A DNA stretch of 64,000 bases, taken from Lentisphaeria bacterium (GTDB lineage: Bacteria; Verrucomicrobiota; Lentisphaeria; Victivallales; Victivallaceae). Location of the stretch: positions 1 to 64,000 of the forward strand of contig JAFSTC010000018.1 of the NCBI GenBank assembly GCA_017450705.1, written 5' to 3'. Under the pieces are notes generated by a model. The model saw only the letters and a list, made by a program, of their open reading frames with translations, had not been told where the DNA came from and did not search any database. Below, piece by piece: positions 20,026-22,195 of this stretch (position 1 is its first letter; each line of letters starts with the position of its first letter). Made by a program: the position numbers and the translations under genes.

Positions 20026-20781
20026 ATGGTAGCATTGTGGGTCATCGTTATGGCGGTCGGTCTTGTCGGAATGATCGTCTGCAGCAAGAAGCAGAAAACC
20101 AATCCGGCGATGCAGCCCGTCGGCATCCTTCTCTTCATCGTCGTTCTGATCGGCGCCGTCATGCTTCTCAAGTCCATGGACGTCTTCGGCGGCGGCAGCT
20201 CCTCGGTCCTCAACAGCGAGATGAGATTCGCCGAGTCCCGCGGCGTCAAGATCGCCAAGTACGTGGCCGGTATCGCCGGCGGCAAGGAAGTCCTCTTCAT
20301 CGTCGACAAGAACTACGAGCAGGGTGATCTGGGCAAGCGTGTCGTCGAGGCTCTCAAGAAGAACTGCGGCGGCACCCTCGTTCTCGACAGCATCCCCGTC
20401 CCGGCCGATGCCGAGGCCAACGGTACGCCCATCGAGGAATTCATGAAGGCTTCCCACATGGACGCCCTTCTGGCCAAGCACCCCAACGCCGCTGTCATCG
20501 TCAGCAACATCGGTCTGCCCCAGGATGCGGCCAAGATGGCTTATTTCAAGGCTCCCGCCGCGGCCCGTCCCAAGATGGTCCTGATGAACGCCGGTTTCGT
20601 CACCAATTTCGATTTCCTCAAGGCTCTGCAGAAGGGTGACATCGAGGCCGTCATCGTGACCAGCCCCAGCGCCAAGTATGACATCAAGGCCCCCGGCGAT
20701 CTGGACAAGGCCTTCGATATCCGCTACGTCCTGGTCACCAAGGCCAACGCCGACCAGTACAAGGATCAGCTTCCCCGTTAA
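20026..20781 (+). CDS. Unknown membrane-anchored protein, probably highly expressed
   Basis: I do not recognise this 251-residue protein. Two hydrophobic helices occupy about residues 2-19 and 31-48, separated by a short lysine-rich loop (SKKQKTNPAM). The remaining 200 residues form an alternating alpha/beta-looking soluble domain (KEVLFIVDKNYEQG, AAVIVSNIGLPQDA, PKMVLMNAGF, DIEAVIVTSP), reminiscent of Rossmann-like or periplasmic-binding folds. The start is chosen for an excellent AGGGAGGT site; an upstream in-frame start at 19966 has none. The gene has its own promoter and strong terminator. CGT, GTC and AAG codons are frequent, unlike the CGG-rich neighbours, which suggests high expression. 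Confidence 0.7.
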   Translation: MVALWVIVMAVGLVGMIVCSKKQKTNPAMQPVGILLFIVVLIGAVMLLKSMDVFGGGSSSVLNSEMRFAESRGVKIAKYVAGIAGGKEVLFIVDKNYEQGDLGKRVVEALKKNCGGTLVLDSIPVPADAEANGTPIEEFMKASHMDALLAKHPNAAVIVSNIGLPQDAAKMAYFKAPAAARPKMVLMNAGFVTNFDFLKALQKGDIEAVIVTSPSAKYDIKAPGDLDKAFDIRYVLVTKANADQYKDQLPR

Positions 20782-20811
20782 GCTGATTTCCCGAATACAG
20801 CGGAATGCGAG

Positions 20812-20840
20812 AAACTCCCGGTTCGTCCGGGAGTTTTTTT
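20812..20840 (+). terminator. Terminator of the 251-residue protein gene
   Basis: A 10-bp perfect stem AAACTCCCGG/CCGGGAGTTT (20812-20821 with 20827-20836), a five-base loop and a T-run make a standard intrinsic terminator. Confidence 0.9.
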
Positions 20841-20861: not shown

Positions 20862-20890
20862 TTGACTTCCCGCCGGAAACGGTATATAGT
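20862..20890 (+). promoter_or_regulatory. Promoter of the candidate small RNA / M20 leader
   Basis: TTGACT, a 17-base spacer and TATAGT predict transcription from about 20897-20898. That is exactly where the 5' strand of the long stem of the candidate RNA begins. Confidence 0.75.
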
Positions 20891-20897
20891 TTATACC

Positions 20898-20993
20898 AGA
20901 AAGCAGGTCGATCTCGGAACAAGATTATCATCGGGCTCTCTTTTGAGCTTATTGTTTTGTGTTTGCGCGAGATGTCAATCCTGCTTTCTTTTT
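20898..20993 (+). ncRNA. Candidate structured small RNA or attenuating leader
   Basis: The ends form a perfect 10-bp stem AGAAAGCAGG/CCTGCTTTCT (20898-20907 with 20980-20989). Inside it are ATCTCG/CGAGAT (20911-20916 with 20968-20973), AACAA/TTGTT (20918-20922 with 20952-20956) and an apical GGCTC/GAGCT hairpin around 20934-20949. A T-run follows the closing strand. A promoter places the start at the first stem base, so the predicted transcript is a rod of about 96 bases. No SRP RNA or tmRNA signature is present, and it is shorter than typical 6S RNA. It may be a free RNA or an attenuator for the amidohydrolase gene 54 bases downstream. Confidence 0.55.
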
Positions 20994-21046
20994 ATTGAGG
21001 ATCAGCGCCCGGATCGGGGCGTCTTTCATATCTGCCGGAGGTGAAC

Positions 21047-22195
21047 ATGCTTGATGTGGAAAATATTTTCGACGGTGTGACGGCTCTCCGTCATAAGCTG
21101 CACACGATCCCCGAGATCGCGGGGAAGGAGTTTCAGACCCAGAAGGCGATCCGCGCGTATATCAGCGATCTGCCGCTGGAAGTCCTGCCGCCTTTTCTCG
21201 AGACCGACACCGTCGCCTTTCTGCGCGGCGGAAGGGGGGAGGGGCCCAATGTGACCCTGCGGGCGGATATCGACGCCCTGCCGGTCACCGAGCAGACCGG
21301 AGCCGCTTTCGCTTCGCAGACCTGCGGCATGATGCACGCCTGCGGCCATGACGTCCACACTTCCATGCTGGCCGGCGCCGCGCGGATCCTGGCCTCCTGC
21401 CGTGAGGAACTCTGCGGGAGCGTCCGTTTCGTGTGGCAGCCGGGGGAGGAATGCGTGGCCATGGGCAAACAGCTGGTCGAAGCCGGCGCCATCGACGATC
21501 CTCTTCCGGACAGGATGACCGCGATCCATGTTGCGCCGGGAATCCCGCTGGGGACACTGGCGGTCAAATACGGGCCCATCATGGCGTCCAGCACCCACTT
21601 CAAGGTCATCGTGACCGGCAGGAGCGGCCACGGGAGCACCCCCTTCAAGGCGGCAAGTCCGATTTTGGCCGCCGCGGCGATGATCACCGATCTCCAGCAG
21701 ATCATTCCCAACAGGATCGATCCGCAGAACACCGCCGTTCTGAGTTTCGGCGTCTTCAAGGCCGGCGAGATCGAGAACGTCATCCCGGATCAGGCGGTCT
21801 TCGCCGGGACCATCCGGGCGCTGGATATGGAGACCGCGCGGACCGTGATGGAGTCCGTTCAGTCCATCTGCCGGAGCATGGCGGAGGCCTATCAGGTCAA
21901 AGCCGATTTCGACATCCATTACGCCTACCGGGTGACCTCCAACGACAAGGCTCAGACCGACATGGCGGTACAGGCCGCCGGGGAGGCGGGCGTTCCCGTG
22001 CAGTGGCTCGAGAAGGCCTCCATGGGCGCGGAGGATTTCAGTTATTTCCTCGACCGGGCCCCCGGGGTTTACGTCCGGCTCGGCGTCGGCGATGCGCCCC
22101 CGCTGCACAACAGCCGTCTTCTGCCTCCCGACGAGGTGATGAAGAACGGGATCAGGTATCTGGTCGCCTTCGCGCTGGACGCGCTGAAAAAATAG
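21047..22195 (+). CDS. M20-family metallo-amidohydrolase
   Basis: The 382-residue protein belongs to the M20 group of aminoacylases, hippurate hydrolases and N-acetyl-diaminopimelate deacetylases. Motifs are LRADIDALPV, the metal-binding MMHACGHDVHTSM, WQPGEECVAMG with the catalytic glutamate, GRSGHGSTP in the dimerisation domain and MGAEDFSYF near the C-terminus. The start is the ATG at 21047 because GGAGGT lies six bases upstream; a GTG at 21041 falls inside that site. It follows the candidate small RNA and converges on the channel gene with 15 bases between the stops. Confidence 0.9.
   Translation: MLDVENIFDGVTALRHKLHTIPEIAGKEFQTQKAIRAYISDLPLEVLPPFLETDTVAFLRGGRGEGPNVTLRADIDALPVTEQTGAAFASQTCGMMHACGHDVHTSMLAGAARILASCREELCGSVRFVWQPGEECVAMGKQLVEAGAIDDPLPDRMTAIHVAPGIPLGTLAVKYGPIMASSTHFKVIVTGRSGHGSTPFKAASPILAAAAMITDLQQIIPNRIDPQNTAVLSFGVFKAGEIENVIPDQAVFAGTIRALDMETARTVMESVQSICRSMAEAYQVKADFDIHYAYRVTSNDKAQTDMAVQAAGEAGVPVQWLEKASMGAEDFSYFLDRAPGVYVRLGVGDAPPLHNSRLLPPDEVMKNGIRYLVAFALDALKK

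Follow-up and report, generated by a model that had tools for sequence, protein, structure and literature searches.

The 64,000-nucleotide stretch of Lentisphaeria DNA analysed here (the window) carries, between two protein-coding genes, an RNA gene of about 96 nt (20898-20993, on the + strand like all features of the window given below), which matches both of our covariance models over its full length (105.3 bits for R1 and 90.6 bits for R2). The gene upstream (20026-20781), encoding a 251-aa protein with weak Peripla_BP_6 similarity, lies outside the RNA unit and has its own terminator at 20809-20839; downstream lies a gene for an M20 amidohydrolase/peptidase (21047-22195), unlinked to the RNA in other genomes. 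A sigma70-type promoter, TTGACT-17-TATAGT (20862-20890), precedes the RNA gene, matches the consensus at 10 of 12 positions and is found with the same placement in homologues. Its -10 box ends 7 nt 5' of a closing stem, such that the predicted start coincides with the 5' end of that stem at 20898. The earlier note, made from this DNA alone, had let the predicted start fall precisely on the 5' strand of a closing stem of 10 bp whose 3' strand leads into a T-run, and was right in both coordinates and anatomy. The interval from the RNA to the M20 gene contains another GC hairpin, small and accompanied by a weak T-run (21005-21022), possibly a back-up terminator or a piece of the M20 5' UTR.

The closing stem, P1, comprises 10 bp, AGAAAGCAGG/CCTGCTTTCT, pairing 20898-20907 with 20980-20989, and is followed by the T-run TTTTT (20990-20994), read as a signal for intrinsic termination; the 3' strand of P1 doubles as the terminator stem, and most homologues possess a T-rich tail. 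A second helix, P2, forms the base of a central bubble and consists of CTCGG (20913-20917; class consensus CUCUG), assigned from covariation, conservation and likeness to 6S RNA, and CGCGAG (20966-20971), assigned from covariation and conservation. The 5' strand of the bubble (20918-20932) begins with a conserved AAC, and its 3' strand (20951-20965) was delimited by parsing 88 members of the family. The rod is capped by a 6-bp apical hairpin, P4, of the form GGGCUC-UCUUUU-GAGCUU (20933-20950). Straddling the junction of P4 and the 3' bubble strand is a -10-like element, UAUUGU (20950-20955), of which U-12 is paired in P4 and A-11 is the first unpaired base. The minimum free energy of the 96-mer is -33.2 kcal/mol compared to a mean of -20.8 for dinucleotide shuffles (z = -3.9), with only 1 of 200 shuffles folding as well.

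Class-wide comparison of 88 distinct rows, aligned by fitting to the covariance model and with one stray opposite-strand row excluded from the parsing counts, revealed changes on both sides in 19 of 23 pairs, including 10 of 10 in P1 and 4 of 6 in P4, with 96.8% of cells able to pair. None of 500 shuffles reached any of five covariation measures, and every slid control collapsed. An independent MAFFT alignment of close relatives recovered the same helices with compensatory changes, the two strands of the closing stem changing together (A-U to G-C, A-U to U-A) and those of the apical stem likewise; in these relatives the -35 and -10 boxes are also conserved at a fixed distance. The rod structure of the RNA is proven by this covariation.

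The layout that emerges from the 88 members is P1 (~10 bp, variable in sequence), a small internal loop, P2, the bubble and P4. P2 reads CUCUG/CNGAG across the members, its 5' side being nearly invariant, and a conserved CUCUGAAC lies on the 5' strand at and beside this helix. The 5' bubble strand, mostly of 14-16 nt, opens with AAC and closes with (G)CAUC, while P4 has 6 bp and a loop that differs between clades in both sequence and length (GCAA, UCUUUU, AUCUUC, UCAC, UAUAU). The 3' bubble strand, mostly of 13-17 nt, opens with U-A-N-N-(G)-U, and its best conserved positions are U-12 (84/88, 95%), A-11 (88/88, 100%) and U-7 (81/88, 92%), positions between and beyond being less conserved. P4 ends with U-12, and A-11 follows as the first base left unpaired, with U-7 four bases further on. 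Positions -12, -11 and -7 are the three most conserved positions of the sigma70 -10 element, and the TANNNU pattern resembles such an element at the upstream fork of an open promoter, with -12 paired and -11 open, although this likeness is one of sequence pattern only. Pairing of G-8 and U-7 with the 5' strand is also possible (P3, in 83% of cells), such that their conservation may be partly structural.

The covariance search for homologues proposed in the earlier note found them across Lentisphaeria, with compensatory base changes. A DNA search identified a homologue in 41 of 100 relatives, one per genome, and model R1 detected the RNA in 88 of 137 genomes of the order. Model R2, built from 56 members, extended the family to 163 of 197 Lentisphaeria genomes (71/81 among those of high quality), compared to none of 256 genomes from other classes in a sample of the phylum. 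Named records bearing the RNA fall in Lentisphaeria/Victivallales, among them Victivallis vadensis DSM 14823, whose copy occupies 49190-49287 of contig G057:C21, and weak matches in further Lentisphaeria genomes (e.g. G189) carry the core motifs as judged by eye. Most of these genomes are metagenome-assembled and E-values are rough; furthermore, a covariance model may miss members lacking its consensus, or favour those that keep it. Opposite-strand matches to R1 and R2 were excluded because they merely mirror the stems, and a 31-nt match in locus L133 was excluded as a terminator-like hairpin. Members are nearly always single-copy and in nearly all cases 85-105 nt long. Tandem copies were observed in G130 (L094, 2009-2105 and 2188-2283, each with promoter-like sequence) and in G141 (L149, 1485-1580 and 1591-1685), and recall the 6S-1/6S-2 pairs. 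Three Victivallaceae loci alone have a longer or different apical hairpin, namely L112 (933-1065, 133 nt), L117 (2059-2184, 126 nt) and L116 (2071-2172, 102 nt); in these, a 6S-like upstream arm may have been partly regained or may persist as a remnant. Promoters were predicted in homologues with a best site of at least 9/12 at 58% of the 88 loci, compared to 6% in shuffles, typically with a gap of 7 nt and a spacer of 16-17. The suggestion of a free small RNA possessing a promoter and terminator of its own is borne out by covariation, by conservation throughout the class and by the recurrent position of the promoter, and 20898-20993 (+) is confirmed as a discrete, independent RNA gene running from its own promoter to its own terminator stem, albeit without transcript evidence.

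At gathering scores, Rfam 15 yielded no match to the RNA in the window, nor was any Rfam match of worth found around the site at E<=10, in agreement with the initial impression that no known RNA family fits. A cmscan of the window and 20 homologous loci returned only nearby tRNAs, with Acido-Lenti-1 (RF01687) and every other Rfam 15 family unmatched. Bacterial SRP RNA (RF00169) was rejected as an identity, the SRP RNA of this genome being located elsewhere (G000:C18:76666-76763). Our search of the literature, which was incomplete, found no description of this RNA. It is a class-wide conserved RNA family absent from Rfam 15, even if the reading developed below should fail.

A remark in the earlier note that the RNA resembled a 6S rod in shape but was shorter proved a productive lead, in that the architecture of the 96-nt RNA is 6S-like; a 6S function is inferred. 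6S RNA mimics an open promoter and thereby switches off RNA polymerase. Canonical 6S (RF00013) was found in 192 of 256 genomes outside Lentisphaeria and in none of 131 inside, whereas in the same sets the new RNA occurs in 107 of 131 genomes inside the class and none of 256 outside. This complementary distribution amounts essentially to one clade-level event and not to many independent trials. A phylum-tuned 6S model, R3, was built from 30 6S RNAs of other classes and picks up divergent 6S RNAs withheld from its construction, at E-values of about 1e-10 or better; among 197 Lentisphaeria genomes it gave five matches at E<=0.1, which is below chance expectation, and none at the new RNA. With RF00013 and R3 yielding nothing above chance in Lentisphaeria, no canonical 6S can be recognised in the class, nor can the new RNA be recognised as belonging to that family; since R3 gives the locus no score, direct homology to 6S is not claimed as shown. 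Outside the class, 64 of 256 genomes had neither canonical 6S (RF00013, E<=0.001) nor the new RNA, and further 6S variants may remain undetected among them.

The two RNAs nevertheless share a rod with a closing stem, a central bubble of about open-complex size and an apical helix, as well as a -10-like element in the 3' bubble strand, which in the new RNA is known as a motif alone. The helix at the base of the bubble, CUCUG/CAGAG (UCUCUGACC/UUCAGAGA), is also common to the 6S RNAs of the phylum, where it appears as UCUCUGA.../...UCAGAGA, and an A opens the 3' bubble strand in both (within a near-invariant CCCAC in 6S), as inferred from the alignment. Both are standalone, nearly always single-copy genes with their own promoter, and the new RNA occupies the part of the phylogeny from which 6S is missing. 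Conversely, known 6S RNAs measure ~160-200 nt, about twice the length of the new RNA, the shortest cited being ~160 nt (PMC9130861, PMC11077062), and possess an extended "-35" arm in place of which the new RNA has its 6-bp apical hairpin. The new RNA is furthermore unmatched by Rfam or by the phylum-tuned 6S model, and its binding to polymerase has not been shown.

We consider it probable, though by no means settled, that the RNA is a minimal 6S-like decoy for the housekeeping RNA polymerase holoenzyme, which replaces the lost canonical 6S throughout Lentisphaeria; binding, sequestration and pRNA synthesis are all inferred. In Bacillus subtilis 6S-1, the 3' bubble strand contains the -10-like region and the apical arm the -35-like region; pRNA synthesis starts in the 5' bubble strand beside P2 and unwinds that helix (PMC8876501). 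By analogy, the orientation of the new RNA would agree with that of 6S, with the -10-like element in the 3' bubble strand and the putative pRNA start in the 5' strand beside P2 (PMC8876501). The proposal also rests on 6S78, an artificial derivative of B. subtilis 6S-1 (78 nt, without the -35 arm): it has ~10-fold lower affinity for RNA polymerase than the full-length RNA, yet retains pRNA templating and release (PMC8876501); the Lentisphaeria RNA nearly has this design, which works in vitro. Against the decoy proposal stand the lack of a match to any 6S model, the short length, the missing -35 arm and the absence of expression data. Classification as 6S should await proof of polymerase binding; our claim is that the RNA works like 6S.

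Under the proposed mechanism, the RNA would bind the primary holoenzyme through its bubble and downstream helix and so sequester the enzyme. Sigma region 2 would capture A-11 and U-7 in the bubble, and P2 and P1 would occupy the downstream DNA channel, with P2 where the downstream duplex would begin. The contact of sigma region 4 with the long apical (-35) arm of ordinary 6S is predicted to be absent or nearly so. The 5' bubble strand might then serve as template for a short pRNA starting near the C of GAAC, 5'-GUUC[A/C]GAG..., antisense to CUCUGAAC; in the window, synthesis is inferred to start opposite C20920 with 5'-GUUCCGAGAUCGACC..., the window form of the antisense product being 5'-GUUCCGAGAUCG.... 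The third position of GAAY is C or U in 77 of 88 members by simple count, and a pyrimidine opposite the pRNA start implies initiation with a purine. Invasion of P2 by the growing pRNA could finally release the enzyme. The test for pRNA-induced refolding or a release hairpin gave no signal beyond that of shuffled bubble strands, the 3' strand of P2 re-pairing in 43 of 88 members compared to 32-45 of 88 in the shuffles.

Among other explanations for the locus, a chance hairpin or repeat that is no gene at all is refuted by the compensatory changes and class-wide conservation, and we regard it as practically untenable. The earlier note had also offered a leader controlling the M20 amidohydrolase, and a cis-acting leader or attenuator might be supposed from the position of the M20 gene, ~55 nt downstream on the same strand. 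However, of 64 loci only those of the window and its closest relative (L003) have the M20 gene next after the RNA, neighbouring genes and their orientation vary, and the closing stem with its T-run probably acts as a terminator. Any one neighbouring reading-frame family is shared by at most 9 of the 64 loci, and these are near relatives. With linkage to a regulated gene not kept across loci, an M20 leader or riboswitch was rejected, and this idea retains only the slightest plausibility. Inspection of neighbourhoods also revealed, in Victivallis-type genomes, a tRNA gene on the opposite strand ~165-240 nt upstream of the RNA (L006 1277-1349, L094 1771-1843, L058 951-1023).

A trans-acting antisense sRNA, pairing with mRNAs through its bubble or loop, would account for the independent promoter and terminator and for the conserved unpaired GAACA. 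This explanation appears improbable, in that the apical loop varies in sequence and length, contrary to what a loop seed for mRNA pairing would require, the conserved letters lie inside a closed rod, and conservation throughout a class is unusual for an mRNA-pairing sRNA. A dependence on Hfq was specifically rejected, as the RNA's own genome (G000, 97% complete) has no match to Hfq (PF17209). A less easily set aside, though still unlikely, alternative is a class-specific housekeeping structured RNA that serves as a scaffold or binds a protein other than RNA polymerase, the -10 and P2 matches being coincidental. That no 6S model recognises the RNA would be consistent with this, and the conserved internal loop sequences could form a protein site; conversely, the -12/-11/-7 pattern at the fork, the 6S orientation, the shared P2 sequence and the complementary distribution all speak against it.

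Returning to the polymerase decoy, several reference systems offer partial parallels. The B. subtilis 6S-1 constructs 6S78 and 6S82cp likewise place a central bubble between two short helices without a -35 arm in 78-82 nt (PMC8876501), but are artificial, whereas the Lentisphaeria RNA is natural and conserved. Ms1 and CoRP of Actinobacteria are also lineage-specific polymerase-binding RNAs where ordinary 6S long went undetected, but are ~300 and 516 nt long, mainly bind the core enzyme and have no known sequence relation to the RNA described here (PMC9130861, PMC11077062). A further short RNA (~85 nt), scr0792 of Streptomyces coelicolor, co-purifies with the transcription machinery (PMC11077062), but has been reported from one species. 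We tentatively raise, as a rather doubtful variant, that the new RNA did not arise by shrinkage of 6S and is instead a promoter mimic of independent evolutionary origin, which replaced 6S at the root of Lentisphaeria and relies on -10 and bubble contacts alone.

Such an independent origin, if true, would represent a further natural RNA solution to the sequestering of RNA polymerase, beside 6S and Ms1/CoRP. If the decoy proposal holds, the RNA would be the shortest 6S-type RNA in nature, and a phylum-scale gap in the spread of a near-universal regulator would be filled. It would also indicate that the -35 arm is dispensable in nature, as hitherto seen only with truncated constructs. With its small size, strict conservation at -12, -11 and -7, and natural variants, the family would then provide a compact system for elucidating which contacts suffice in open-promoter mimicry.
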